Assembly: GCA_021798015.1 (NCBI GenBank)
Contig: JAJZYP010000010.1
Location: 1-34,421, forward strand
DNA length: 34,421 nt
Reading direction: 5' to 3'
DNA from: a bacterium
GTDB taxonomy: Bacteria > SZUA-79 > Acidulodesulfobacterales > Acidulodesulfobacteraceae
Numbering within the stretch: position 1 is the stretch's first letter; each line of letters starts with the position of its first letter. A program made the translations under genes and the position numbers. A model generated the notes under the pieces. That model did not search any database. It saw nothing but the letters and a program-made list of their open reading frames with translations, and was not told the DNA's origin. Of this stretch, positions 2,458 to 34,421 are shown piece after piece.

Positions 2458-3003
2458 ATGAAAACTATTAATGATATATTTTTACATTACTTATCTTCGT
2501 TTCACGATACCTTTAATAGTGACGGAGCGGCTAAATCTTTTTTGGAATCTTGGCTCTGCCTTAGTTTAGCCGCGCAGATAAATATTAATAAACATTCCTA
2601 CAAAAACAAAAATGATAAGGATAAATTTGAGTTTTTATTTAAAGATTATAAAAATAAGATTACAGGCATATTTAACGATAAACAAAATGTAGCTCTGCTT
2701 AAAAATATTCTTAATATTGTAGAATCGGGCTGTCCGATACTGATAACAAAGTTTGACGATATTAAGGAAACGATAAATAGAACCGAGGGCATAAGAGATT
2801 TAACAGATAAAGAACTGGATTACTTTATGGATTGCACCGTAAGCCTAATTCATCTGGGTAAAAATAAACTGTTTAAATCTTTTAATTTGGGTCTTTTGAC
2901 CGGGGATTACGACGATTACGATATTAGATTCTGTGAAAACGCATCTATATTAATATATCATATTATCGGCGCTGTTCTTGCGCCAGCCGTTCATGCGTCA
3001 TGA
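2458..3003 (+). CDS. unrecognised protein, 181 residues
   Basis: An ATG with a good ribosome binding site (GGAGG five nt before the start) opens the only convincing plus-strand gene in the window. The product appears soluble and helical, is rich in Lys, Asn and Asp, and has no signal peptide. It has Cys at about 33, 92, 125 and 159, and an acidic GDYDDYDIRF stretch near 149-158. The C-terminus is hydrophobic (ASILIYHIIGAVLAPAV). I do not recognise the family. It converges on polA with 210 nt between the two stops, and no hairpin terminator is seen there. Codon use is as AT-rich as in its neighbours, so there is no sign of recent transfer. Confidence 0.6.
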   Translation: MKTINDIFLHYLSSFHDTFNSDGAAKSFLESWLCLSLAAQININKHSYKNKNDKDKFEFLFKDYKNKITGIFNDKQNVALLKNILNIVESGCPILITKFDDIKETINRTEGIRDLTDKELDYFMDCTVSLIHLGKNKLFKSFNLGLLTGDYDDYDIRFCENASILIYHIIGAVLAPAVHAS

Positions 3004-3213
3004 ATATTCCAGTTTTATTTTGAACACGATATTTTTAGGACTATTAGGATTATATAATATGCAAATCGGCAAATTCAGCGCAAAAAGCCGGAAAACCATA
3101 AAGAGCGTAAACCATATTAGATTAAATATAAGAACGCGCCAACCCGCAAATGCAAACAAGAATGAGAGATAAAATAAGATAAAATAGATAGAATAATTTC
3201 TTAATGTTTTAAG

Positions 3214-6033
3214 TTAATGCGCCTGCGCCCAATTTGCGCCTACCCCTATATTGATAGCCAGCGGGACATTTGCTAAAAGATTTTTATCGGTCATTAAAAC
3301 GGTTACTATATCTTTGAGCTCGTTTACTAAAGATTCTTTTACTTCAAATATAAGTTCATCATGAACTTGCAGTATCATTTTTGCATCTTTTTTTAGTTCG
3401 GGGCTGCTTTGAAGTTTTTTATGTATATTAATCATTGCAATTTTAATTATATCGGCGGCTGTCCCCTGAATAGGCGCGTTTATTGCGGCTCTTTCGGGAA
3501 AAGAAGCTATATTTTTTATTTTGGAATTAATATTTTCCACATAGCATTTTCTCCCGAATGCCGTCCTGACAAACCCGGCAGGTTTAGCTTCTCTAACTGT
3601 TCGCTCCATATAATCTTTAATGGCGGGGTGATTTTGAAAATATAAATCTATGTAAAGCTTTGCCTCTTCGGTGGAAATACCGAGTTCTTTTGATAGCCCA
3701 TAAGGACTCATACCGTAAATTATTCCAAAATTAATTACCTTTGCTTTCCTTCTCATAGCAGGGTCAACATCTTCGGGATTAACCTTAAATATTTCAGACG
3801 CCGTTTTTGCGTGAATATCTTCGTTGTTTTGGAAGCTTTCAATCAACGCTTTATCTCCCGAAATAGACGCCATAACCCTTAAATCGATCTGGGAGTAATC
3901 CGCCGACAATAAAAAAAAGCCTTTTTTTGCAATAAAAGATTGTCTTATTTTACCCCCTTCATCGCCTGAAACAGGAATGTTTTGAAGGTTTGGACTTTGG
4001 CTCGCAAGCCTGCCGGTTGAAGTTGTAACCTGAGAAAAAGAGGTATGAACTCTGCTGTCTTTGTCAATTTCTTTTAAAAGAACATCGGTAAAAGATGTTT
4101 TGAGTTTAACCTTGTTTCTGTATGATATAAGGTCATCTATAAATCCTAAATATTGCCTTATTGCCTTATCTTCGCCCTGACGCAACAAAAATTCGAACTC
4201 AGACTTTAATGTTGAAAGAACCTCTATATCGGTGCTGTTTTTCTTTACTCTGTTAAATTTCATTTCATTGAACATAATTTCGCTAAGCTGTTTGGGCGAA
4301 TTGACATTGAATTCTTTCCCCGCAATTTGATGCAGGATATTTGCAAGCCTTTTTGATTCCACCTCTAATCCTGCCGACAAAGACATAAGTTTATCTTTGT
4401 CAACCATAAACCCGACCTCTTCCATATCGCTTAAAACTATCGAAAGCGGCATATCGACATTATAAAATAGGTATTTCAAACTTTCATCTTTTTCTATTTC
4501 GGCTTCAAAAATTTTATACAGAATATAAACCGAAAAGGCTTCGTTGCCTGTATCAATTTGAACATCCGATGCCTTTAATAATCCTAAATCTATATTGCTT
4601 AAATCCTTTAGCTCTTTTTCAAACTCATTTTCTATATTCGCAAAACTATGGGAATGTCTTATGGGATTTATAAGGTAGGATGCAATTTTTATATCGAAAA
4701 ACAGATTATTTAATTCAATACCGCTTTTATTAAGAAAACTTTTTATAAAGCTTATATCATAACCTATTTTATAAACAGAATCGTCCTTTAACAAACTTAA
4801 TATTTGCGAATTATTGGCAAGGTCTTTTAGGTTTATGATCCTGGTTCCTGTTTCTTTTGAAAATAAATATATTAAATCCCGGTCGTTATCACCTTCAAAA
4901 TTAAAATTTAACAAATCTTTATTTTTATCATTAAAATCGATATAAACCGAAAGAATGTTTATATTATTAATTATGTCATTAATACGGTTACTATAATTAC
5001 TATAATCATCATTGGAAGGTTTGTCGTTTAACCCTATTTCCAGTTCCTTTAATAGAGAGTTAAATTCCAATTTTTTAAAAATATTATAAAGCCCATTGTT
5101 ATCTTTTTGCCTCATTGCAAAATCGTCTAATATATGAAAACTCTTGCCGTTTTCGCCCGCAAATTCTTTTAGTTCAGGCGTAAAACATGCCCCGTTAATA
5201 TCAATATCTTTGTAAAATGAGGCAAGTTCCAAACTCTTATATGCGTCTTCTTTATGATTTATAAGCAAATCCTTAAGTTTTTGCTGTTTAATGCCGTTTA
5301 TATGTTCGTAAATGCCATCCAAGTTCTTATAGGTTTTTATTAAACTAAACGCTGTCTTTTCACCAATACCTTTAATCCCCGGAATATTATCGGAAGCATC
5401 ACCCATTAATGCAAGAACATAAAGGTATTCGTTCGGCTGTATTCCATATTCTTCCTCAAAATCCCGGGCTGTAATAATTTTATTTTTAAGGGCGTCGTAT
5501 ATAAAAACCTGATCAGATAATAGCTGCTTCAAATCTTTATCGCTGCTTACAATACAGGTAGGTATAGATAATTTTTTTGAAAAATTATTCACGATGTAAG
5601 CAATTAAATCATCCGCTTCGTATCCTTTAAGTCTGAATGTATTAAACCCTAATAGATAAGAAATATCCGTTAAAGAATCAACCTGAGACAATAAATCTTC
5701 GGGCATCCCCTTTCTATTGGCTTTATATTCCTCATAAGACTGTTTTCTCAAGCTTTCGTGGGAATCAAAAAGGCATGCCCCATATCTTATATTTGCCTCT
5801 TTAATTAACTTCATAAGCATCCTTGCATATCCTAACGTAGCGCCGGTTGGAACACCTTTGGAATTCGTAAGAGGGGGAAGGGCATAATAAGCCCTGTAAA
5901 AATAAGAGCTGGAATCTATTAAAAAAAGGGTTGCTTTAATATTAAGAATCTCTTTGGCTTTAGGGCGGCTTTTCTTTTCCGTTTTTTTTTGAGGCAGGCT
6001 ATTTTCCATTATTTGTTCAAAATTTCTTAACAT
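3214..6033 (-). CDS. polA: DNA polymerase I
   Basis: 939 residues, a usual length for full Pol I. It fills gaps and removes RNA primers in replication and repair. The N-terminal 5' nuclease (about 35-290) shows LFLIDSSSYFYRAYYA, YKANRKGMPE, GYEADDLIA and LMGDASDNIPGIKGIGEKTA. The polymerase has SPNLQNIPV, motif A LLSADYSQIDLRVMASISGD (near 710), motif B RRKAKVINFGIIYG (near 765) and motif C LQVHDELIFEV (near 890). The middle 3'-5' exonuclease domain looks dead: the Asp-x-Glu of the first exo motif reads YIDFND, and the last motif has SVYILYK with no catalytic Asp, while GYD remains. The first ATG (6033) overlaps the RDD gene by 17 nt; an ATG at 6009 (MENSLPQ) would avoid this. Neither has a clear ribosome binding site. 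Confidence 0.96.
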   Translation of the reverse strand: MLRNFEQIMENSLPQKKTEKKSRPKAKEILNIKATLFLIDSSSYFYRAYYALPPLTNSKGVPTGATLGYARMLMKLIKEANIRYGACLFDSHESLRKQSYEEYKANRKGMPEDLLSQVDSLTDISYLLGFNTFRLKGYEADDLIAYIVNNFSKKLSIPTCIVSSDKDLKQLLSDQVFIYDALKNKIITARDFEEEYGIQPNEYLYVLALMGDASDNIPGIKGIGEKTAFSLIKTYKNLDGIYEHINGIKQQKLKDLLINHKEDAYKSLELASFYKDIDINGACFTPELKEFAGENGKSFHILDDFAMRQKDNNGLYNIFKKLEFNSLLKELEIGLNDKPSNDDYSNYSNRINDIINNINILSVYIDFNDKNKDLLNFNFEGDNDRDLIYLFSKETGTRIINLKDLANNSQILSLLKDDSVYKIGYDISFIKSFLNKSGIELNNLFFDIKIASYLINPIRHSHSFANIENEFEKELKDLSNIDLGLLKASDVQIDTGNEAFSVYILYKIFEAEIEKDESLKYLFYNVDMPLSIVLSDMEEVGFMVDKDKLMSLSAGLEVESKRLANILHQIAGKEFNVNSPKQLSEIMFNEMKFNRVKKNSTDIEVLSTLKSEFEFLLRQGEDKAIRQYLGFIDDLISYRNKVKLKTSFTDVLLKEIDKDSRVHTSFSQVTTSTGRLASQSPNLQNIPVSGDEGGKIRQSFIAKKGFFLLSADYSQIDLRVMASISGDKALIESFQNNEDIHAKTASEIFKVNPEDVDPAMRRKAKVINFGIIYGMSPYGLSKELGISTEEAKLYIDLYFQNHPAIKDYMERTVREAKPAGFVRTAFGRKCYVENINSKIKNIASFPERAAINAPIQGTAADIIKIAMINIHKKLQSSPELKKDAKMILQVHDELIFEVKESLVNELKDIVTVLMTDKNLLANVPLAINIGVGANWAQAH

Positions 6034-6433
6034 CTATAACACGGGTAAAGGCAAATCTATCTCCCAGCCTTTCACCTTCGGGGCTTTTTATAATAAAATA
6101 GATTTCGACAGCAAATATGAAAAGACCCGCCGTGAAAAGCAAAAAATATCCGACAAACGGTATGAGGGAAAATAAAAGGGCTAAAGCAAGGAAGGAATTC
6201 CTTATAATGGATTCCTTAAATTCGATTCGTTTTTCATTAGAAATCGTTATAACCTTTAAACCTATAATCTTTTTCCCAAGGCTTTGTCCGTCAAAAAACC
6301 CATCGGCGATTAAAATATATAAGATGCCAGCTAAAAAGCCGAAAGGATAAAACACCTCGCTTAAAAAGCCAAAGATCAGTAAATCGATAGCCTTAGCTAT
6401 AAACCTGTGAAGGATATTTGCTTTCTTATCCAT
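6017..6433 (-). CDS. RDD family membrane protein
   Basis: 138 residues with about three hydrophobic segments. The family signature is present: an early Arg and Asp (HRFIAKAIDLLIFG), the loop DGQSLGKKIIGLKVI, and a late Asp-Arg pair (ERLGDRFAFTRVI). RDD proteins are small inner-membrane proteins, some linked to ion exchange, but the function of this one is unknown. It lies 50 nt after ahbD and overlaps or abuts polA, so it is probably co-transcribed with polA. Confidence 0.85.
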   Translation of the reverse strand: MDKKANILHRFIAKAIDLLIFGFLSEVFYPFGFLAGILYILIADGFFDGQSLGKKIIGLKVITISNEKRIEFKESIIRNSFLALALLFSLIPFVGYFLLFTAGLFIFAVEIYFIIKSPEGERLGDRFAFTRVIDVKKF

Positions 6434-6483
6434 AAATTAATTAAATTATATGGTTTATTTTATATGTATAAATAAATTTATCG

Positions 6484-7635
6484 TTATTTATTAACAAGCC
6501 TTCCTTTTATCGGCTCATAAATACAATAGGGCTCTTCTTCCATGTAGTCCCCTTTTTCATAATAAGCCCTTGCCCTGCATCCTTCACATACCTTTTTGTA
6601 TTCGCAAATACCGCATTTACCCTTTAATAGACCTGTATCCCTTAAATTTAAAAATACTTCGGAACTATTCCAGATTTCGCTAACGGATTCTTTTGTAACA
6701 TCTCCCGCTTGAACGGGTAAATAGCCGCAAGGTTGAACGACCCCTTTTCTAGATATAAACATAACGCCGCTTCCGGCTAAACAGCCTCTGGTAACGGCGG
6801 CCATACCATGTGTTTGAGGAGTAATGGTTATACCCTCGTCTTTTGCTCTTTTATGCATAATTCTAAAAAAATGCGGGGCACATGTGGCTTTAAGCTCGAT
6901 TCTGCCCCTTAACTCCATAGTCTTATCGTAAAACCATGAAAGTATGTCTTCGTATTTTTGTTTATCGAGCATTTGGGAATCCGCAATCTGAACGCCGCAG
7001 CCAACAGGCACAAGCATAAATATGTGAAGCGCCTTTATGTTGTTGTTTAAAGCTAAATTTAATATGTCTTTAACCTCGTCCTCATTGTGCCTTGCAATAG
7101 TGGTGTTTATCTGCACCTCGATGCCTTCTTTTTGTAAACTTTTAATGCCGTTAAAAGCGCCTTCAAAAGAACCCGGTATCATTCTGAATGTATCGTGGGT
7201 TTTGGAATTAGTCCCATCAAGGCTTATAGAAACCCTTTTAATTCCGCTTTCCCTAATCTGTTTTGCAACCCTTTCATCCACTAATGTTCCGTTAGTAGCA
7301 AGGGCGACACGAAGACCTTTGCCGGTAGCATAACGGGCAATATCAAAAATATCATCCCTATATAACGGCTCTCCTCCGGTTAAAATAAGGATAGGACTGC
7401 TAAACTTGCACAACTCGTCTATGACATTAAAACATTTTTCCGTTCCGAGCTCGTCCTCCTGCCGTTCCAACTGGGCCTCGGCACGGCAATGAATACATTT
7501 TAAATTGCACCTTGCGGTAAGCTCCCAAAAAACTAATCTTAAGTCGTTTTTTTGCGGCATTTGCATATTACCGCCGTGCATTTCGTGCATTTGGCCATGA
7601 TGACTGGCGGGCATTGAAATATTATTATTCTCCAT
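6484..7635 (-). CDS. ahbD: haem b synthase, radical SAM (Fe-coproporphyrin III decarboxylase)
   Basis: Last step of the sirohaem-dependent haem pathway: it converts two propionates of Fe-coproporphyrin III to vinyls. The 383-residue frame has the radical SAM cluster motif CNLKCIHC (C43, C47, C50) preceded by VFWELTAR, the GGEP motif, and a C-terminal SPASM-type region (GCLAGSG, QPCGYLPV, KCGICEYKKVCEGCRARAYY) that should bind auxiliary Fe-S clusters. The ending with EEEPYCIYEP is typical of AhbD. The ATG at 7635 is preferred over 7650 because GAGGAG lies 7 nt before it; it overlaps the end of ahbC by 11 nt, so the two are translationally coupled. The first 28 residues are oddly rich in His and Met (SHHGQMHEMHGGNMQM). 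Confidence 0.9.
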   Translation of the reverse strand: MENNNISMPASHHGQMHEMHGGNMQMPQKNDLRLVFWELTARCNLKCIHCRAEAQLERQEDELGTEKCFNVIDELCKFSSPILILTGGEPLYRDDIFDIARYATGKGLRVALATNGTLVDERVAKQIRESGIKRVSISLDGTNSKTHDTFRMIPGSFEGAFNGIKSLQKEGIEVQINTTIARHNEDEVKDILNLALNNNIKALHIFMLVPVGCGVQIADSQMLDKQKYEDILSWFYDKTMELRGRIELKATCAPHFFRIMHKRAKDEGITITPQTHGMAAVTRGCLAGSGVMFISRKGVVQPCGYLPVQAGDVTKESVSEIWNSSEVFLNLRDTGLLKGKCGICEYKKVCEGCRARAYYEKGDYMEEEPYCIYEPIKGRLVNK

Positions 7636-23492: not shown

Positions 23493-26400
23493 TTAATTTA
23501 TAACGGAAACAAACTCCGCGACTACTTTAAAGTCGGTTTCCGAAGCATTTTCTATTACAATGTCGTCAAAATCTTTATTATCCGGCGAAAGGATTATTTT
23601 TTTATGAAGCCAGCGGCCATCTTCTTCTAAATATTCCTTTTCGCTTTTATATCTTTTTACGGTAAATTTTTGGTTCGTTTCGGGGTCGGCAACGAATTTC
23701 GATGATTCCACAAGTACTACTTTGCCGTTACGAGAGCCGCCGCGCTCGAAACGGAATATACAGTAACTGCCGTCCGGTATGGTAGGTTCCATTGATTTGC
23801 CGGCTACTTTTGCTATAAACATATCTCTACTAAGTTTTAAGGGGGCGTTAATGGTTTTACCTGCGGAATCGCTGACGCCGGTATCGGACTTTCCGGTTTC
23901 GACTCTTTTCCAGCCAAGCTGTTCGACATATTCTTCGCCGCTAAACTTGGAGGCGGCGGCTTCTAAAGAATAGACAGGCAGGTATTCCACAAATTTTTCG
24001 GCTTCGGCGATATCGTCGCTTGAAACAAGTTGAAGATGCACCGGTTTTACACCTTGATATTTGTCCTCGAATATTTGAGGTAAATTTTTAACAATCCGCA
24101 TTGTCTTTATGCTGACATTAATTATCTTTTTCAATAAGTCTAAGATATATCTGGGATTATCCGACCATTCGTTTGGGTCATTAAGAATATCGCTATCTTT
24201 ATCAATTTTTATTTGGTATCTTTCCATAATCCACTCTATTGCAGGTTTGCCGTTTACGATATAATCGTAAGCCTCAAGCGGTATGTCTTTAAGCGTTATG
24301 TAAGAATTATAATCTATTATGCTCTTATCCACTGCTCCGTCTTTTTTGCCGAATTTCATTTTATTAACCTTATAATCAGGATCTCTCTTTTCGCTTATGT
24401 CTTCTATCGCTGGATACGGCTCAATGTCCTCGTAATTTATATGTAAATTTATAAGTTTTTCACCGGCTTTGCCGAAAGCCCAAAAATCGGGCGCAAAAGG
24501 CATACGGGGCAACATTCTTTTTAATGTGGCGCTAAAGCGCTCTTTGTATTCAGGGGAATGCAATATCCCGTAAATATAATGAAATATATCGTCCTTTTTT
24601 ATTGCTTCATCGCTATAACGTTTTTTAAATAAATATAATGTTTCGTCGGTAATAGCATCACGACGCATATATGATTCAGCAGTTGTTTCTTTTATTGCAT
24701 TATTGTTTTCAAACAAGCCGTTTTCTTCATGTCGTTCGACTTTTTCATAGTAATAGCGGGGAAAGCACTGACCTGGAGACAATGCGCTTAAATCAGGCAA
24801 TGTTTTAGACGCCAAGGTTGAAAATGCTTTGGAAGCCCCAATACCGGTAACAGTTATAACGATATTCTCATGTTCAGACGTCGGAAAAATTGATGGCATT
24901 AAATAGACCATACTATTGAACATTCGGTCGAAATATAAAAACTCTTTTACAAATGGGCGATACAATGATTCGATAATATTATCCTGTTTAAAAAGTCCAA
25001 TTTTCCCATGCTTTGCATAATTCTGTAACTCTCTATCCCAACTTATAAATTTTTTATCGTTATTAAAAGGAAGACCGGTCTTAATATTATTAATTTCTTG
25101 ATTATAATTGCCAATCATACGCTTCATATTTTCAGATAATTCTTTTTTGGAAAAATTGTAAGCCCATGCGTCCCTGCCCGTAACAGCACCTCTTGAATAA
25201 ATACTAAAAATAACTTTATGGTTTTTATCCTTTTTATCTCCCAAAGACATAAAATCCTCAAAAGCTTCATCCCTTTGGTTAATCCAATCCCCCGCAATAT
25301 TTGGTTCTATTTTTTGGCATGACAGTTTCTCAATGCTCCCAAACTCAGCAATAATATTAAGTTTTTCTTCCCTATCCAAGTAGTCGCCTATATCGTGGTA
25401 ACACAACTCGCACTCGCCTTTATGTAAGCCGTCTTTAATAAATATCGTAATTGCCACAGGGGTGCGGGAACCTGAGCCAAATATCTTGCCACCTTCCTTA
25501 TGAGATAATTCCCCAGAAGTTCTCTGGTTTCCTCGTAAATTAAAAATGTATATATGACTGAAATCCTTTACAATGGTTTTCCTTATACCGTCCGCAGCAT
25601 TTCCGTCTATAAAAGAACCGTTAGTAACAAATCCTATGACGCCTTTGTCTTTAATTCGGTCGGACGCCCAGCGGATAGCCCTTATATAAGAATCGTAAAG
25701 GCTGTTTTTGTTGGTTGCACTTGATTCTTCGGCATATGTTTCTTTTATTCGCTCGTCAAGTTTGGGATATTTTAAATTCTGATTGTTGTCGTTTCCGCTG
25801 GTCTGTCCCGCGGAATAGGGCGGGTTACCAAATATTACCCTTATGTCCTGTTCTTTTTGCCTTTTTGCCCGTTCGCTGTTTGCCTCGGAAAACGCGTCAA
25901 ATTTATTATTATCTTCGAACATCTGGAACGTATCGGCAAGAACTATACCTTCGAAAGGTTTATACTCCCCTGTCAAGGAGTGATAGATATTTTCAATATT
26001 TACTGTCGCAACATAATAAGCTAAAAGAACTATTTCGTTAGCATGTATTTCGTTTCTGTATTTATAAGGCAGGTCTTCAGGTTTGATTAATCCCGATTGA
26101 AGCAACCTTGTGATGAATGTTCCCGTACCGGTAAAGGGGTCAAGAATCTGAACATTTCTATCCGTTAATCCGGTATCAAAATGACTTCTTAAAGCATGTT
26201 CGACCGAGTGTATTATAAAATCTACCACTTCGACCGGCGTATAGACTATTCCCAGCCTTTCGGACATCTTGGGAAATGCTGTTTTAAAAAACGTGTCGTA
26301 GAGATTTTTTATAACATCCTGCCTCGATTTATCGCTTTTAACATAATCGATACTGTTTTTTCTCACATTCTCGTAAAACCTTTCAAGCCCTTCTGTTTCC

Positions 26401-28772
26401 TTAGACACCGAATATTTTTCGATAATATCGGCAATTTCCTGCATAGCCTTTTGGACCGGATTATTACCCGAAAATAAATAGCCCTCAAATAACGCGTCAA
26501 AAACTGGACGGGTGATTATATGCTGAGAAAGCATCTCGATAGCATCTTCTTCGCTAATAGAAGGATTTATGTCTCTTTGTAAACCATGCACAAATTTATC
26601 GAAAGCCTCTTTAGCTTTATCGTTGTTTTTTATAATACCGTTTATCCTAATTATTAATTTTGCCGATATAGCGGCAGTGTCTTTTGCCCACTCCGCCCAG
26701 TATTCCCTATCTCCAAGTTTTTTAGGCACTATTGCATAAATTGCTTTTTCAATATTTTCAAAAGGTAAGAGCGGCAATGCAAATCCAGGATTCATATCTG
26801 GACGCAGTGTTCTGCTACTATCTCCCCCGTCGAAAACAATCCTAATTTTTCTTCTGAATTCAGCCTCGTCCACTAAACTTTCATCGTGAGAGCGCAGGGC
26901 TTTTAATACCTTCCATATTTCTTTAAATCTTTGGTTTGTGTCAACATAATCGTTATAATTATTTACATCCTGGTTAGGAATAGAAACTGGCAGTATAATA
27001 TATCCGTAATTCTTTCCTTCCGCCTTACGCATAACCCTGCCTACGGATTGGACTATATCCATTATGGATTCTTTTTTATCATAAAATATTACGGCATCTA
27101 AAGCGGGAACATCCACGCCTTCCGAAAGACATTTCGCATTTGAAAGGATGCGGCATTCGCTTGTATCTGCGCTTCCTTTGAGCCAGTTTAATTTTTTTTG
27201 TCTCACCATAATGTTCATGGTGCCGTCAACATGGTCCATATCAAAACCGGATTCAGACAATGAGCCTTCATGCAAACTTACCATTTTTTTAAACACGTAA
27301 GACATTTCCTTTGATGCTTTAATCGATTTAGAAAACGCGACTGCCATACACATACGCTTATTATCAATACTTTCCATTCCATTATCGTCTATAGAAAACA
27401 ATTCCCGCCCCATTAAAGCCTTCCAGCTGCCTATTATTTTCGTTGCAAGTTCTGTGGTAACGGCTTCATTTTCGTTAATATTATATTGATTAACTAAATC
27501 CGCCATTTCATTTTCGTTCACAACTGTAATCATAACTTTATAATCGGACAACAGGTTCATTCCAACAGCCTTTCCGAAGCTCAACTCATATAACTGTTTT
27601 CCGTAAATTGCTTCGTCGTCCATAGAAAACAAAGAGGCGCTGGCTTCATCGGCTTTCTTCTTTACCGTTTCGTTATAAATGCGAGGGATAGCCGTCATAT
27701 ACAATCTTTTGTTTCCACTGATAACGGAATTATCATGTACCTTGACGAATTCGGAATCTTCCTCGTTTAGCGTTGTTGCGCCTGTCGTGCGGTGGGCTTC
27801 GTCGCATATAATAATATCGAAAGAGCCGATACCTTGTTTTTGCGCATCCGATATAACCTGAATGGATTGATATGTAGAGAATATAACCGTCATTCTGCCG
27901 TTATTACTGCTATTAACGGCTTGAACGAGTTTTTGGGCATCCGTTGTGGCAGGATATGCCAGCTCATGAACTCTTATATCTTCATCCTCTTTACCGACCT
28001 TTGTATCGGAACAAACCGCAAAGGCGTTAAACGGTTCGTATGCATCCGCAGTCCAGTCCCTCAAACTCTGAGAGACAAGGGCTATAGACGGGGCTAAAAA
28101 CAGAATCCGTCCTTTCGGCGCATATTTCTCGCAGAGACGCAATGCCGTGAGCGTCTTACCTGTTCCGCAAGCCATAATAAGCTTCCCGCGGTCGTTATCC
28201 TGAAAACCATTTATAACAGCATTAACCGCTTCTTCCTGATGAACCCTAATAAGTCTTTTAGGTTTAAGTTTTATATCTTCAGGATTGTCTATATCAAACA
28301 GTCCCCAGTCAACAGGACTTTCCTCAAGGTTTTCAAGTGTTATCCTATGTGTTGATATGGTTTGATTTTGAAGAGCTTTTTCGGCTTCACTGCTCCAGTT
28401 ATTGGTGGTAGATACTATCAAACGGTAATCAAAAGCTTTGTATTCTCCGTTTATATTATATCTCTTGCCGGAAGCCGTAAAAAATGAATCTATATCGGAT
28501 TTTTGTAAATTATATTCTTGGTCATAGAATTTGCACTGCACAGCCCAATAATTTCCTGTATCTATCTCGCGGGCAACCAAATCTATGCCGCTATCCATTC
28601 CCCTGTCGGGACATTCATCCCACTCGCTCCAAGTCCATACTTTATCAATTTTATTGGCATATTCAGGGTCGGTTAATAAATATTTAGCGATTAATTTTTC
28701 AAAAAAAGAACCTTTATCCCTTGAACTTAAAGGCAGCTTGTTTACTTTTTGAATAATATCGATAATTTTCAT
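23493..28772 (-). CDS. type ISP restriction-modification enzyme with C-terminal S24 (LexA-like) peptidase domain
   Basis: 1759 residues carrying all activities of a type ISP system like LlaGI. Nuclease: GIDLVA (D64) and WAVQCKFY (K81), a PD-(D/E)xK core. SF2 helicase: ACGTGKT (201-207), CDEAHR (323-328), YMTAIPR, and SVGRVMRKAEG. Adenine methyltransferase: YTPVEVVDFII, ILDPFTGTGTF near 880 and FGNPPYS near 984. Target-recognition region: about 1130-1590. Residues about 1598-1759 are extra: LPVYSLEAAASKF, then VAGKSMEPTIPDGSYC (Ser1660), KFTVKRY (Lys1706) and LSPDNKDF, the Ser-Lys dyad fold of LexA/UmuD. Family members with this fold cleave at Ala-Gly or Cys-Gly; here the matching place reads Ala1607-Ser1608. 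ATG with AAGGAAG upstream. All motifs are intact, so the enzyme is probably active. Confidence 0.93.
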   Translation of the reverse strand: MKIIDIIQKVNKLPLSSRDKGSFFEKLIAKYLLTDPEYANKIDKVWTWSEWDECPDRGMDSGIDLVAREIDTGNYWAVQCKFYDQEYNLQKSDIDSFFTASGKRYNINGEYKAFDYRLIVSTTNNWSSEAEKALQNQTISTHRITLENLEESPVDWGLFDIDNPEDIKLKPKRLIRVHQEEAVNAVINGFQDNDRGKLIMACGTGKTLTALRLCEKYAPKGRILFLAPSIALVSQSLRDWTADAYEPFNAFAVCSDTKVGKEDEDIRVHELAYPATTDAQKLVQAVNSSNNGRMTVIFSTYQSIQVISDAQKQGIGSFDIIICDEAHRTTGATTLNEEDSEFVKVHDNSVISGNKRLYMTAIPRIYNETVKKKADEASASLFSMDDEAIYGKQLYELSFGKAVGMNLLSDYKVMITVVNENEMADLVNQYNINENEAVTTELATKIIGSWKALMGRELFSIDDNGMESIDNKRMCMAVAFSKSIKASKEMSYVFKKMVSLHEGSLSESGFDMDHVDGTMNIMVRQKKLNWLKGSADTSECRILSNAKCLSEGVDVPALDAVIFYDKKESIMDIVQSVGRVMRKAEGKNYGYIILPVSIPNQDVNNYNDYVDTNQRFKEIWKVLKALRSHDESLVDEAEFRRKIRIVFDGGDSSRTLRPDMNPGFALPLLPFENIEKAIYAIVPKKLGDREYWAEWAKDTAAISAKLIIRINGIIKNNDKAKEAFDKFVHGLQRDINPSISEEDAIEMLSQHIITRPVFDALFEGYLFSGNNPVQKAMQEIADIIEKYSVSKETEGLERFYENVRKNSIDYVKSDKSRQDVIKNLYDTFFKTAFPKMSERLGIVYTPVEVVDFIIHSVEHALRSHFDTGLTDRNVQILDPFTGTGTFITRLLQSGLIKPEDLPYKYRNEIHANEIVLLAYYVATVNIENIYHSLTGEYKPFEGIVLADTFQMFEDNNKFDAFSEANSERAKRQKEQDIRVIFGNPPYSAGQTSGNDNNQNLKYPKLDERIKETYAEESSATNKNSLYDSYIRAIRWASDRIKDKGVIGFVTNGSFIDGNAADGIRKTIVKDFSHIYIFNLRGNQRTSGELSHKEGGKIFGSGSRTPVAITIFIKDGLHKGECELCYHDIGDYLDREEKLNIIAEFGSIEKLSCQKIEPNIAGDWINQRDEAFEDFMSLGDKKDKNHKVIFSIYSRGAVTGRDAWAYNFSKKELSENMKRMIGNYNQEINNIKTGLPFNNDKKFISWDRELQNYAKHGKIGLFKQDNIIESLYRPFVKEFLYFDRMFNSMVYLMPSIFPTSEHENIVITVTGIGASKAFSTLASKTLPDLSALSPGQCFPRYYYEKVERHEENGLFENNNAIKETTAESYMRRDAITDETLYLFKKRYSDEAIKKDDIFHYIYGILHSPEYKERFSATLKRMLPRMPFAPDFWAFGKAGEKLINLHINYEDIEPYPAIEDISEKRDPDYKVNKMKFGKKDGAVDKSIIDYNSYITLKDIPLEAYDYIVNGKPAIEWIMERYQIKIDKDSDILNDPNEWSDNPRYILDLLKKIINVSIKTMRIVKNLPQIFEDKYQGVKPVHLQLVSSDDIAEAEKFVEYLPVYSLEAAASKFSGEEYVEQLGWKRVETGKSDTGVSDSAGKTINAPLKLSRDMFIAKVAGKSMEPTIPDGSYCIFRFERGGSRNGKVVLVESSKFVADPETNQKFTVKRYKSEKEYLEEDGRWLHKKIILSPDNKDFDDIVIENASETDFKVVAEFVSVIN

Positions 28773-28891: not shown

Positions 28892-29917
28892 TTATTCGCC
28901 TTTTTTAGATTTTTTTAATAATTTCTTTACTTCACGGTCAAAATCAGACTCAATCGGCTGAATTTTATTATATTTTTGATATTCTCCTATGGCTTTTTTA
29001 TCGGCCTTTTCTTTTGAAATTTGTCCTTTGCCGTCAAGTATCCTGAATTCATTGAAATCTAAAAATTTATTAACGCTCCCCGCAAACTCCGACATAGTAA
29101 AAGTTTTACGGTTTTCTATAATGTTTTCTATATAATCAAAGAAGCCTGAAACGGTCCTTTCAAGTTTCTTAATCTCTGCTTCTTGCAAATAATTTTTAGC
29201 GATAGTTACATCGGAGGGAAGAATCCTGCCCTTTGGCGCATTCTTCCATGTCGCAAGCCCCATATAAGGCTTGTTTTTATCGGCTTTTAAGTGGATAATT
29301 TCTGCGGCTGTCAGACCTGTAATAGCAAAATGAAACTTATTTTGAATCGTCGCAAAAAACTCTTTCGTTGTATCCGAATGAGGATCGTAATCGGTACTGC
29401 ACTCTGCAAAGATATCTGTAATCTGCTGATATATACGCCTTTCGCTTGCCCGTATAGAGCGGACTCTTTCCAGTAACTCTTTAAAATAATCCCTGCCAAA
29501 AAACCGTTCGCCTTGTTTGAGCCGTTCATCGTCAATGGCAAAGCCTTTTACGATATATTCTTTTAAAACTTTAGTAGCCCATATTCTAAACTGCGTGGCT
29601 CTTATAGAATTGACTCGATAACCGACGGCTATAATGGCATCAAGGTTGTAAAAAGCAACTTCACGTTCAATTCCCCTTTCTCCTTCTCTTTGAACTATCC
29701 GGATTTTCCGGATAGTTGATATCTCATCCAATTCTCCGCTTTTAAAGATATTCTTAATATGCTCATTAATAGTCCTTACATCTACCCCGAACAATTCCGC
29801 CATCATTTTTTGCGTAAGCCATAAGGTTTCATCCAGTAAAAAAACATCTAATTTTACATCGCCGGACGGCGTGGTATAAAGGACAAAATTTCCTGATTTT
29901 TGTAATTTATTATCCAT
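28892..29917 (-). CDS. rhuM: RhuM family protein
   Basis: 341 residues. RhuM proteins were named from Salmonella pathogenicity island 3 and are common inside restriction-modification loci; their function is unknown. Signatures: FLLDETLWLTQKMMAELFGVDVRTINEHIKNI (helix-turn-helix-like, about 26-57), ELDEISTIRK, REVAFYNLDAIIAVGYRVNS, RATQFRIWATKVLKEYIVKGFA. The C-terminal part (about 185-330) is the usual RhuM tail. It is plausibly a DNA-binding regulator for the neighbouring type ISP gene 119 nt downstream. No ribosome binding site is evident before the ATG. The second RhuM-type protein at 33-34 kb shares the N-terminal motifs only. Confidence 0.88.
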   Translation of the reverse strand: MDNKLQKSGNFVLYTTPSGDVKLDVFLLDETLWLTQKMMAELFGVDVRTINEHIKNIFKSGELDEISTIRKIRIVQREGERGIEREVAFYNLDAIIAVGYRVNSIRATQFRIWATKVLKEYIVKGFAIDDERLKQGERFFGRDYFKELLERVRSIRASERRIYQQITDIFAECSTDYDPHSDTTKEFFATIQNKFHFAITGLTAAEIIHLKADKNKPYMGLATWKNAPKGRILPSDVTIAKNYLQEAEIKKLERTVSGFFDYIENIIENRKTFTMSEFAGSVNKFLDFNEFRILDGKGQISKEKADKKAIGEYQKYNKIQPIESDFDREVKKLLKKSKKGE

Positions 29918-30540: not shown

Positions 30541-30757
30541 CTCTCAAAATTTCATTTTCCGCTAAATCTTTAATGTCAAAAACGTATAAAACGGCATCCG
30601 CACTTTCAATCTGATTGTAGCTCCCTTTTATACCCTCATATTCTATCGTATTCTCCGTTTCTCTCAAGCCTGCGGTATCTATAATTTTAACGGGCTTATT
30701 GGATAAAAACAGGTTTTCTTCTATATAATCCCTTGTAGTGCCGGGCGTATTCGACAA
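30528..30757 (-). pseudogene. mnmE: internal fragment of mnmE (tRNA modification GTPase)
   Basis: About 76 codons encode SNTPGTTRDYIEENLF, VKIIDTAGLRETENTIEYEG, IKGSYNQIESADAVLYVFDI: the G2 (TTRD) and G3 (DTAGLRE) region of the MnmE GTPase domain. The MnmE N-terminal domain, the P-loop, the NKxD motif and the C-terminal CxGK end are all absent. Upstream it overlaps the end of the hsdR fragment in another frame; removing one base near 30755 would read DIVSNTPGTTRD, close to the family consensus. Downstream it runs into the transposase remnant. It has no start signals and cannot make a working protein. An intact mnmE is expected elsewhere in the genome. Confidence 0.8.
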
Positions 30758-31211
30758 CTATATCCGGCGAGTTTTTCAAACTGTTTTCGCCGGTTCTTTT
30801 CCAAGGGCTGAATCTATTTTGAGGAGACGTCAAAGTTCCGGCTCTTGCTTCCAATCCGTCCGATATTATCAATATTTCGTTAAAGCGGAAAATGGAAGGT
30901 ACAAGGTCTATATATGTTTGAAGCTGGGTATAGGCGCTCCATATCGATGCGTTCTCGTCAACAGGATTTTTAAGCTCAATTAAAACTAAAGGAAGTCCGT
31001 TAATAAATAAAATTACATCGGGTCTTCTGTTTTCTCTGCCTTCTTTTATAGTAAGCTGGTTTACCGCTAAAAATTCATTATTATCTATATCGTTAAAATC
31101 AAACAGCCAGACTATATCGTTTTTTATGCCGTTTTTGGTATTGTATTCGACTGGAACGCCGTCGGTCAGAAAACGGTGGAATGTTTTATTGTTTGTAATT
31201 AAATCCTGAGC
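30758..31211 (-). pseudogene. hsdR: N-terminal nuclease-domain fragment of type I restriction subunit HsdR
   Basis: About 150 codons: LITNNKTFHRFLTDGVPVEY, DIVWLFDFNDIDNNEFLAVN, RRPDVILFINGLPLVLIELK, AYTQLQTYIDLVPSIFRFNE, LIISDGLEARAGTLTSPQNR. This is the PD-(D/E)xK domain of HsdR, with the Asp of RPDV and the Glu/Lys of IELK present. The first 100 or so residues and the whole helicase are missing. Clear similarity ends at FSPWK (about 30800). The frame continues in phase from hsdS with no stop or spacer, so a deletion removed the end of hsdS and the start of hsdR. The end runs into mnmE DNA. Confidence 0.85.
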
Positions 31212-31813
31212 TTCGAGGGTTTGGATTTGTGAAATATTGTAAGAAATTTTTTCATAAAGTGAATTCGCAAACATTGCATATGCTTTTAATAACTTTTCGT
31301 CAGGAATAATCATTTCTATTTGTTTTAAATGAACAGGACCAAAATTTGACTGAACACTACCGGTTGCCATGCTTTTCATATTATCTTGGAAAAATTGCGA
31401 GTTTAAAAATTGATACATAAAACTGTAACTCAATTTATCAATTGGTCTAAATCTTATAATAGAAGTATTTAGCATTAACGGTAGGTGTTCCTTTCTAACA
31501 ATTGCCGATTTACCCAATGTCCCTGAAGTAGAAACAACCATATCTTTTTCTTGTAGATGAAAATGCTTGTATCGTTCTTCCGCTTCTTCAACAGAAATAA
31601 AATTAGAATTTTTTATCTTTATGTCGCTGTTTTGAATTAATCGAATATTTATAAATCTTCTTCCAAATTCTGTATATTGCCAATTTCTTATACCTGGTCA
31701 TTCAATAAAATCAAAAAGTTCCGTCAATCTTCCTATTTCCCACCCCTCTGGAATCTCGCCAAGCTCGCTTTCGACCATTGTTCCGCCGCTTGATTTATAG
31801 CCTTTTAACTCCC

Positions 31814-31857
31814 AACTCCCCTCCTTAAAAGGAGGGGTGCCCGAAGGGCGGGGTGGT
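31814..31857 (+). repeat. left end repeat of the DUF559 cassette
   Basis: It holds AACTCCCCTCCTT, the hairpin CCCCTCCTT-AA-AAGGAGGGG (31818-31837) and a second small hairpin GCCC-GAA-GGGC (31839-31849) ending in GGGGTGGT. The 24 nt at 31832-31855 recur in inverted orientation at 32244-32267. It is strongly GC-rich against an AT-rich surround. A further GCTGACGGGGTGGT module follows at about 31864-31877. Confidence 0.85.
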
Positions 31858-32243
31858 AACAAGGCTGACGGGGTGGTATCCTTTCCAAATTCTTTTTTTA
31901 TGCAATCAAGTATATAATCCGGGTTTTCAAACACTAATTTATTTTCAAACCGCAAAACTTTTATTCCATAATAAGATAAAAACAATTCGCGCTCAATATC
32001 ATATTCAGCTTGAGTTTCAATATTATGAACTTCACCATCAAGTTCAATTCCTAATTTCTCCGAAGGACAATAAAAATCCAAGATATAATTGTCAACGCTA
32101 AACTGCCTGCGAAATTTCCTGCCGTCTAATTGTTTATTTTTTAAATAAGTCCATAATTTTGCTTCGGCAGGAGTAAGATTATTTCGTAACTGTTTACGGA
32201 ATGTTTTTAAAATGCTTTTATTATTTACTATCCTATCAGGTAT

Positions 32244-32324
32244 CACCCCGCCCTTCGGGCACCCCTCTTGATAAACCACCCCGTCAGCCTTCGGCTGCCA
32301 CCCCTCCTTAAAAGGAGGGGAGTT
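32244..32324 (-). repeat. right end repeat of the DUF559 cassette (inverted)
   Basis: Read on the minus strand it has AACTCCCCTCC with the CCCCTCCTT/AAGGAGGGG hairpin (32301-32320), then a GGCAGCCGAAGGCTGACGGG module, GGTGG, and then the 24-nt copy (32267-32244) of the left repeat. The two ends share the modules but not their full order, as if built by repeated small duplications. Confidence 0.85.
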
Positions 32325-33050
32325 TAGGGCATTTTCTTGCTCTACCGGAAACTCGAAATCCACGAACCACCGCTTATAGATAGCCTGCGCTACCCCTTCC
32401 AGCGTCTTGTTCTGCTCCCGCAGAAGTTCTATTTTGTCGTCAAGCGAGGAAAAGATGGCGGCAATGGCTCGCTGCTCGGTTAGCGAGGGAAGTAAAAATT
32501 TAGAATTTAAGATTACCTCTGGATTAAATGCAGGATAAGTAGAAGTGTGAGTATCCGCTATCTGCGTCAAATATTCAGTATATTTTTCGGTCGTTAGTAA
32601 ATTATATAAAAAATAGGGATAGGCTCTTTTTGCGCTAACAACAGCAAAGCCAGTTGAAGCAACAAGATTTGGTTTAGATGTTTTTATAAAGCAGAAATGT
32701 TTTAAATTAGGCCTAACTGTAGAAATTAAAATATCATCATTTCGAACAATTCGCTTTGCTCTACTTGGGGCACTTTCTAATATTAATTTTTGTGTTTGTA
32801 AAAGTTTCCTTTCTTCAACTGAAGCTACATCAATATATTCAATTTCATAAAAATGATAATCTTTGTTTATGGTCAAAGCATTAATTTCCGCCACTTCCCC
32901 AAGCCTCGTCATCTTCCAACCTTCCGGTATAGGTTTATTAGTTTTTTTATTTTCTGTTTTCATTACGCTTTTCCCTTTATGTTTCCTTTTTGGGTGCAGT
33001 ATAGTTAACGGGTCTTTGGGTCGTTATAGAATATTATTTTTACTTGTTTT

Positions 33051-34070
33051 TTATTCTTTTTCACTGCCGCCCCTTAAAATCAGCAGAATAATGCCTATCA
33101 TTCTGTCCTTATCTTTTGAATTGCTTTCGGCAATAAGCAATGTAAGTGCCGTTAGCACATTAGGACTTAAGCGTTGCATATTCAACAAGCCTGCTTTTTG
33201 CAAAAACCATATAAATGCAAACGCGGCGCTTCGCTTGTTGCCGTCGATAAAAGGATGATTTTTTATAAAAAAATATAATAAATTTGCGGCCTTTTCTTCA
33301 ACGGTCGGATAGACATATTCTTCACCGAAAGATTGAAAGACGTTTCCGACAATATTTTCTATATTCTTTTCCTTTCTTTCGATGCCGAATAAATCGGCGG
33401 CTTCGCTTTTGGCAATAAGTTCTTTTTTTAGTTCTTGCAAGGCATTTCTCAATTCGTTTGCCGTAATTTCTATCTGATTTTTTGTAATCCCCGATTTTGG
33501 CAGCTCTTCGGCATCATATGCATTTAAAGAAAACCACGTATCTGCAAAAATAGATACGAGTTCTAAGATATTTACCGTATCTGTCTTACTGCTTTCCGGT
33601 AAAAGAGCCTTTACATCGTCTAACGCTTTTAAAAACAGTTTATAATTTGACGCAATGCGTTCTTTATTAATAGAATAACCTTTTATAATATGCTCTTTTA
33701 ATGTTGTAGTCGCCCATCGGCGAAATTTAGTAGCTTTTTTTGAATTTACTTTGTAACCGACTGATAAAATAACATCTAAATTATAAGATTCTATTTCTCG
33801 TTTTACTATTCGATTACCTTCATTTTGAACTGTTGCAATTTTTGCAACAGTTGATTTTTCATCTAATTCACCGTCTTTATAAATGTTTTTTATGTGGCGT
33901 GAAATGCCGGATTTATCAATACCAAAAAGATCTGCAATCTGTTGCAAACTCGCCCATAAAGTTTCTTTCTTGATATCGGCTTTAAATTCAATTGCCCCGC
34001 TTTCCGACTGATATATAGCTATTTCATTTTTAATTTCGTTTTGTCGTGATTTATTTTTAATATTTTTCAT
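33051..34070 (-). CDS. RhuM-Fic/DOC fusion protein
   Basis: 339 residues. The N-terminal RhuM part (about 15-135) shows TLWASLQQIADLFGIDKSGI, SRHIKNIYKDGELDEKS, REIESYNLDVILSVGYKVNS and FRRWATTTLKEHIIKGYSI. The C-terminal part (about 195-335) is a Fic/DOC domain with HPFIDGNKRSAAF, catalytic His272 and Arg280. Fic domains transfer AMP or phosphate to proteins, and the HxFxxGNKR form is of the DOC type. Fusions of this kind are common between hsdM and hsdS in type I loci. It begins 6 nt after the hsdM stop, so it is in the same operon, and ends 87 nt before hsdS. The target is unknown; a toxin or regulator of the system is possible. It appears intact. Confidence 0.9.
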   Translation of the reverse strand: MKNIKNKSRQNEIKNEIAIYQSESGAIEFKADIKKETLWASLQQIADLFGIDKSGISRHIKNIYKDGELDEKSTVAKIATVQNEGNRIVKREIESYNLDVILSVGYKVNSKKATKFRRWATTTLKEHIIKGYSINKERIASNYKLFLKALDDVKALLPESSKTDTVNILELVSIFADTWFSLNAYDAEELPKSGITKNQIEITANELRNALQELKKELIAKSEAADLFGIERKEKNIENIVGNVFQSFGEEYVYPTVEEKAANLLYFFIKNHPFIDGNKRSAAFAFIWFLQKAGLLNMQRLSPNVLTALTLLIAESNSKDKDRMIGIILLILRGGSEKE

Positions 34071-34076
34071 AAGTTC

Positions 34077-34421
34077 TTATTCTGAATTAAACCCTATTTT
34101 AGAAAGCTGTTTTCTAATTTCTTCATCCAGTCTTTTTTCTTCTTCCATTTGCTTCGAAAGCTCAGCCGTCAGCCGTTTCATCTTTTCTTCGAATAATTCG
34201 TCGTCTTCTTCTGTTTCTTTAGTGCCGACATATCTGCCGGGCGTTAAAATATAACCCTGCTTTTTTATTTCTTCGAGAGTCGCAACTTTGCAAAAACCGG
34301 CGGTATCTTCATATTTTCCGCCTTCGCCCCTGAAAGCATGGTAAGTATCGGAGATTTTATTTATATCTTCTTCGGTAAGCTCCCTGTGCCTTCTGTCTAT
34401 CATAGCACCCATATTGCGCGC
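34077..34421 (-). CDS. hsdM: type I restriction methyltransferase subunit HsdM, C-terminal part, cut by the window edge
   Basis: 114 residues are in the window and the frame is open at the right edge (ARNMGAMIDRRHRELTEEDI). The rest, ISDTYHAFRGEGGKYEDTAG, FCKVATLEEIKKQGYILTPG, RYVGTKETEEDDELFEEKM and a coiled-coil tail, is the standard C-terminus of HsdM. The catalytic NPPF motif would lie to the right of the window. In type I loci HsdM methylates adenines as part of M2S1. The downstream hsdS is broken, so this subunit probably lacks its partner from this locus. Confidence 0.9.
   Translation of the reverse strand, partial: ARNMGAMIDRRHRELTEEDINKISDTYHAFRGEGGKYEDTAGFCKVATLEEIKKQGYILTPGRYVGTKETEEDDELFEEKMKRLTAELSKQMEEEKRLDEEIRKQLSKIGFNSE

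Follow-up and report, generated by a model that had tools for sequence, protein, structure and literature searches.

The hsdS gene of a type I RM locus, in the 34,421-nucleotide stretch of DNA analysed here (the window), holds a 511-bp cassette that encodes a DUF559 nuclease domain in frame with the host protein. This cassette is probably a small selfish, homing-like nuclease unit, bounded by inverted triplex-type palindromes and inserted in frame in tolerant linkers, above all those of RM genes. Its mobility is well supported by sequence comparison, and homing is inferred, without biochemistry. The comparisons lend support through the boundaries of the unit, its presence at unrelated sites, empty sites, end elements shared across phyla, apparent purifying selection, loss of a private start codon and the RM bias of its hosts. 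It is inference only that DUF559 causes the movement and recognises the palindromes, and that a homing step (cleavage of an empty allele and gene conversion) takes place. In the mechanism that we propose, a cut made by the DUF559 nuclease in or close to a palindrome or the cognate empty allele would be repaired by copying in the cassette, the end palindromes providing the homology. Reversal would leave a lone palindrome, and an inserted cassette would persist, without splicing, as a domain of the host protein.

The cassette in hsdS and its nuclease domain

The cassette (AACTCCCC...GGGGAGTT) spans 31814..32324 on the minus strand, and these ends mark the limits of its homology to the standalone cassettes found in relatives. 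It lies within a 421-aa hsdS open reading frame (31698..32963, minus strand), and the sole domain between its ends is DUF559 (PF04480; 31890..32207, minus strand), an EDxHD/Vsr-like nuclease domain recognised from profile, fold and dN/dS that occupies aa 253-358 (Pfam, E 4e-30). A reading made from the sequence alone (the sequence-only reading) had placed a Vsr-like DUF559 between the conserved helix and the second recognition domain of HsdS, and this is where the profile finds it, after the first target recognition domain (Methylase_S, aa 13-189; 32397..32927, minus strand) and the conserved helix. On the 5′ side in gene sense, the end element (32274..32324, minus strand) is built as AACT-CCCCTCC-loop-GGAGGGG, followed by a spacer hairpin and a third arm, GGGGTGG, toward the nuclease; the 3′ end element (31814..31858, plus strand) is its inverted copy, with the third arm GGGGTGG again toward the nuclease. 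A second, partial inner copy is present on the 5′ side (32241..32270, minus strand; GAGGGGTGCCCGAAGGGCGGGGTG) and a partial inner copy on the 3′ side (31861..31877, plus strand; AAGGCTGACGGGGTGGT). The GC-rich inverted ends described earlier were recovered as repeats of 26 nt at 92% (31814-31839 / 32299-32324), 34 nt at 88% (31825-31858 / 32241-32274) and 17 nt at 100% (31861-31877 / 32275-32291), together with an exact 20-nt palindrome, CCCCTCCTTAAAAGGAGGGG, in two copies, one at either cassette end. Folded as single-stranded DNA, the 5′ and 3′ end elements gave z-scores of -4.06 and -2.48, respectively.

The hsdS reading frame is open across both end repeats and is not broken by the cassette itself, as the sequence-only reading had stated. 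Its further statement, that the host gene is extended, holds only in part: a TGA stop (31698..31700, minus strand) falls 114 nt past the cassette, where the second recognition domain begins, and the reading frame of the rest of that domain leads into the N-terminal domain of a truncated HsdR (30696..31697, minus strand). Because of this stop and the downstream hsdR fusion, the type I RM locus of the window is decaying. The window also contains a type ISP restriction enzyme (23493-28772) that is unusually fused at its C-terminus to an S24-peptidase-like domain (PF00717), and two RhuM genes (28892-29917 and 33051-34070), the second of which also has a Fic domain and is located between hsdM and hsdS.

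The family invariants of DUF559 (R10, E17, D46, E57, D59 and H63) are all present in the window copy. The predicted structure (pLDDT 88.6) gave NGO0050 (3hrl) as its best Foldseek match (E 3e-8), along with the catalytic domain of I-Bth0305I (3r3p; E 2.7e-4, TM-score 0.73 by target) and weaker matches to AbaSI, PvuRts1I and Vsr. On the predicted model, and without residue-by-residue superposition, the criterion of an EDxHD/Vsr-like catalytic fold and residues is met.

Standalone relatives, lone palindromes and empty sites

The idea of a small mobile nuclease unit would have failed if the ends had no second copy in the genome, if no HsdS without the insert could be found, or if DUF559 were a normal part of the HsdS linker. 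Each of these was tested and the idea survived all three, although movement itself is not shown. Beyond the cassette, the genome has an exact copy of the 20-nt palindrome at C50 and copies with a single mismatch at C22 and C41, and the reversed control gave 0 matches, meeting the REP/RAYT criterion of dispersed palindromes that match the ends. The C41 copy is in frame in a second hsdM, where PPRPSGSQLPSFQGGVGVVQE lies between HAFRGE and GKYED; the window hsdM has HAFRGEGGKYED at this position, the empty counterpart being GGCGGA (34317..34322, minus strand). The same hsdM site is occupied by a full DUF559 cassette in Cyclobacterium (L060, L063) and Fulvivirga (L065).

Standalone relatives of the cassette, with 79-83% protein identity, were found in three genomes of the same family (G016, G025 and G027), in each case upstream of a conserved segment that resembles a tRNA. 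Alignment of the window cassette with that of G016 runs from palindrome to palindrome (31816-32322, 75% at the nucleotide level), and the similarity of the window cassette to the other standalone copies ends at these palindromes on one side or on both. The tRNA-upstream site is empty in G010, G014, G028 and G029, where the flanks are roughly 45-80 bp apart (judged from the best-matching pieces). These flank alignments and empty alleles indicate that one unit is present at two unrelated sites, one of which has empty alleles. Tandem arrays of 66-67 bp, consisting of the palindrome plus unique sequence, were also observed beside the standalone cassettes of G016 (L019/L056) and G025 (L021/L057).

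HsdS linkers without the cassette were likewise found. In the same family, the linker carries a lone hairpin in G023 (L142; AACTCCCCTCCTTTCAAGGAGGGGAGTT), a full lone element in G018 (L143) and a remnant in G026 (L141; CAGCCGAAGGCTGACGGGGTGGTT), and in G008 it is followed directly by the HsdS C-terminus. In the G023 hairpin, the outer halves of the left and right ends are joined to each other, as would be expected either of a target palindrome or of loss through recombination between the ends. At the junction, plasmid-borne HsdS homologues have ..FEFPNADGKPYKSSGG.. or ..FDFPNENGEPYRSSGG..; the hsdS linker query matches 97 plasmid records, in one place each, and DUF559 is absent there given that the matches listed are 195-225 nt long. 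Most HsdS proteins lack the cassette, so DUF559 is no normal part of this linker. Occupied and empty alleles of one site are known for the hsdS linker, the hsdM site and the tRNA-upstream site, which meets the homing-endonuclease criterion. No target-site duplication was evident outside the palindromes at hsdS or hsdM, a lack that speaks against our preferred reading but rests on homologues too divergent to make it certain. A different short insertion, FDFAQGKPNED, is present in the same HsdS linker on a plasmid of Picosynechococcus PCC 7117 (L327), and for this reason the linker may be a general insertion hot spot.

End elements across bacteria and the link to triplex repeats

A profile scan of genome contigs yielded 419 DUF559 relatives, and the closest 80 loci were analysed. 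This set is biased toward the clade of the window, the narrow alignment A3 having been the query, and 386 genomes picked regardless of palindromes (the unselected set) were added to correct the bias. DUF559 was detected at E<=1e-20 in 69 of the 386. Like ends were indeed found at DUF559 genes elsewhere, with flank inverted-repeat scores above the 99th percentile of local controls (n=2914) in 50/78 close loci and, in the unselected set, above the 99th control percentile in 51/86 distinct loci having enough flank. Because the palindrome recurs in the genome of the window while its reversed control does not, and because the flanks of homologues outscore local controls, the end repeats are beyond chance. 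The consensus end element across phyla, about cTCCCCTCCTTnnnAAGGAGGGGTGtCCGnAGGaCGGGGTGG, faces inward on the 5′ side of 50/81 loci and on the 3′ side of 57/81, compared to 22 matches in 471 kb of background. A generic triplex motif (a hairpin with a mirror third arm) was found on both sides of 52/84 unselected loci, and its density near DUF559 was 15 times that of the background. Around DUF559 in Pontibacter (L113, L117, L120, L122, L124, L128, L131 and L134) the palindromes are reversed, with the third arm outward; this opposite orientation speaks against our preferred reading.

The fragmented nature of the metagenome assembly, in 184 contigs, leaves room for the view that the repeats arose by chance or were joined through misassembly, which we regard as scarcely credible. 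Independent assemblies from different phyla, Cyclobacterium isolates among them, show the same structure, and an assembly artefact is ruled out on this basis.

The architecture of the ends, CCCCTCC..GGAGGGG..GGGGTGG, meets the criterion for PIT/TM repeats, with triplex formation in solution only a potential read from sequence; in the window end elements, the spacer between arms 2 and 3 is itself a hairpin. Like those repeats, the ends have a hairpin and a mirror third arm, are GC-rich and are dispersed (Holder et al. 2015, PMC4666352); they differ in that the E. coli motifs are all intergenic (PMC4666352). That study reported no associated mobile element, mobilising enzyme or link to DUF559 (PMC4666352). 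In E. coli K-12 MG1655, TM no. 9 is located 168 bp from the DUF559 gene ycjD, the 3′ end of which is overlapped by a palindrome, and no palindrome of the end-element type was found on the 5′ side of ycjD in E. coli K-12. The exact TM motif was found in 52/386 genomes (reversed control, 0), and DUF559 was present in 27/52 of these vs 42/334 of the others (odds ratio 7.5, p=1e-9), a p-value that is indicative only since the genomes are phylogenetically non-independent. We advance, as a tentative proposal that falls somewhat short of probable, that DUF559 proteins, including E. coli YcjD, are the mobilising enzymes of PIT/TM repeats, and that one branch of these proteins is now a non-splicing, in-frame homing element of RM genes. 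As a separate observation, the DUF559 gene on Picosynechococcus pAQ6 (L326) adjoins a DUF1156 gene and is accompanied by several CCCCC..GGGGG triplex-like palindromes.

The palindromes could also belong to an independent REP/MITE-like family that is moved by another enzyme, with DUF559 as a passenger between two copies, which we consider unlikely. Many lone copies exist, and palindromes without detected DUF559 occur in several same-family genomes, as in G023 with 26 copies, a finding that also counts against our preferred reading and is limited by the incompleteness of the assemblies. Against this, DUF559 lies repeatedly between palindromes across phyla (pairs enclosing other genes were outside the survey), end sequences are conserved along a DUF559 clade, and the TM motif and DUF559 co-occur. 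Within the family, the four genomes with DUF559 had more palindromes than the others (p=0.006), which is partly accounted for by the cassettes' own ends.

A nuclease gene between inverted palindromes, with lone palindromes dispersed in the genome, is an arrangement shared with REP/RAYT systems (REPINs/BIMEs). This parallel, together with ends that fold into stable single-stranded hairpins, would fit a RAYT-like transposition in which the folded single-stranded palindrome is the substrate of DUF559 and the unit is excised and inserted as a single strand instead of by break-repair homing, a minor possibility that we do not dismiss. The HUH/Y1 domain is absent, and the fold is PD-(D/E)xK-like, with NGO0050 and the homing nuclease I-Bth0305I as its nearest matches. 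RAYT identity of the cassette is ruled out by this domain content and fold: it has DUF559, not an HUH tyrosine transposase, and unlike REP/RAYT systems its ends have a mirror-symmetric third arm and cassettes often lie within coding frames. Rickettsia palindromic elements and intragenic REPs likewise place palindromes within protein genes, but nuclease cargo and RM bias are not described there (PMC3733652). With EDxHD homing endonucleases such as I-Bth0305I, the cassette shares the fold of the catalytic domain and a selfish-gene logic, and DUF559 itself has been placed in this family in an intein context (PMC9403480) and occurs in inteins here; the cassette differs in having no surrounding intron or intein, in being bounded by inverted triplex palindromes and in persisting as a domain of the host protein.

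EDxHD nucleases, PIT/TM repeats and in-frame palindromes are each already known separately. Literature searches on DUF559, on palindromes with Vsr-like nucleases and on the palindrome sequence, which did not cover subscription journals or preprints, found no description of the association, and the RM bias and non-splicing in-frame lifestyle were likewise not found described in the searchable literature. If true, our reading would assign a role to a 'domain of unknown function' that is widespread, identify a likely agent behind the so far unexplained spread of repeats known from >260 genomes, and add a selfish element that can do without splicing because it tolerates existence as a host domain. 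It would also account for the unusual nuclease insertions that annotated restriction enzymes show (type I S, M and R; type IIG/IIL; ISP; N6/N4 methylases), and the presence of such cassettes across many phyla suggests that a class of selfish genetic element has been overlooked.

Hosts of the in-frame copies

In-frame copies, defined by a long open reading frame with host sequence on either side, made up 26/80 of the closest DUF559 loci, and 24 of these 26 hosts are RM genes by Pfam. The hosts comprise Eco57I/type IIG (13), type ISP (5), HsdM (3), HsdS (3), a ketoacyl synthase (1) and a methylmalonyl-CoA mutase (1). Insertion sites recur across phyla, for example after HYMCQESLIHYLDN, before FAPIDILDYIYAVLHSP, or between LLKNAYY and LETLPNIDINIKCGNS. 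Among 12 long in-frame ORFs of the unselected set, 9 are of RM or anti-phage methylase type, namely HsdR (1), MmeI-type (2), Eco57I-type (2), N6/N4 methylases (2) and DUF1156 anti-phage proteins (2); the remainder are a PurL-type amidotransferase (1) and two that are unidentified. One unselected Eco57I-type locus (L242) shares domain coordinates and scores with L064 and is evidently the same gene. Type ISP matches in the same genomes number 86, and nearly all cover the domain with no gap of cassette size; host homologues are continuous across the insertion site, indicating that insertion is occasional and that the cassette is no standard part of these enzymes. A DUF559 tree (109 columns, weakly resolved) requires at least 7 changes between in-frame and standalone states and at least 16 changes of host class. 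Cassette similarity fails to separate shared host from shared phylum, and since this test is uninformative, independent insertion cannot be told case by case from transfer of an already occupied RM gene.

The dN/dS of DUF559 was 0.05-0.12 across standalone and in-frame pairs, and 0.07-0.08 for the window copy vs its nearest relatives. An ATG within 20 codons upstream was present in 42/54 standalone vs 5/27 in-frame copies (p=6e-7). The low dN/dS and the mostly lost private ATG indicate that the nuclease is conserved while being made within the host protein, in agreement with the sequence-only reading, which had it made only as part of that protein.

The strong RM bias, the purifying selection and the loss of a private start could be produced by an adaptive domain fusion, in which RM enzymes took up DUF559 as an additional nuclease or repair module and the palindromes are merely incidental repeats, and the DUF559 protein VsrA of Caulobacter does interact functionally with a solitary methyltransferase (PMC12907096). 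We nevertheless find this quite unlikely: the same-ended unit stands alone in many genomes; a fused methylmalonyl-CoA mutase, a ketoacyl synthase and a PurL-type amidotransferase are among the hosts; the insertions make no distinction between S, M and R subunits or between type II, ISP and N6/N4 enzymes; and the window host is a decayed locus. Under the preferred reading of a selfish, homing-like unit, the RM preference may reflect either good vehicles (frequent transfer, long tolerant linkers and costly loss) or carriers of the target palindrome, and the data do not decide between these.

DUF559 has already been assigned to the EDxHD family, in an intein context (PMC9403480). The hsdS protein of the window contains no intein domain, leaving the splicing-block criterion for an intein unmet, and intein identity of its cassette is ruled out. 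Elsewhere in the unselected set, DUF559 lies between intein-like splicing blocks ending in HN/C at L237, L244 and L245, two of which are in DNA methylases at DPT/CGSGTT or similar; L244 and L245 were recognised by eye and L237 also by TIGR01443. In-frame DUF559 cassettes in housekeeping-type enzymes were observed at L083 (the fused methylmalonyl-CoA mutase) and L233 (the PurL-type amidotransferase). The L237 protein (G126, ORF 2883-7337), a DNA methylase with a DUF559 intein at DPT/CGSGTT, carries in addition a second, non-intein DUF559 cassette with palindrome-coded flanks.
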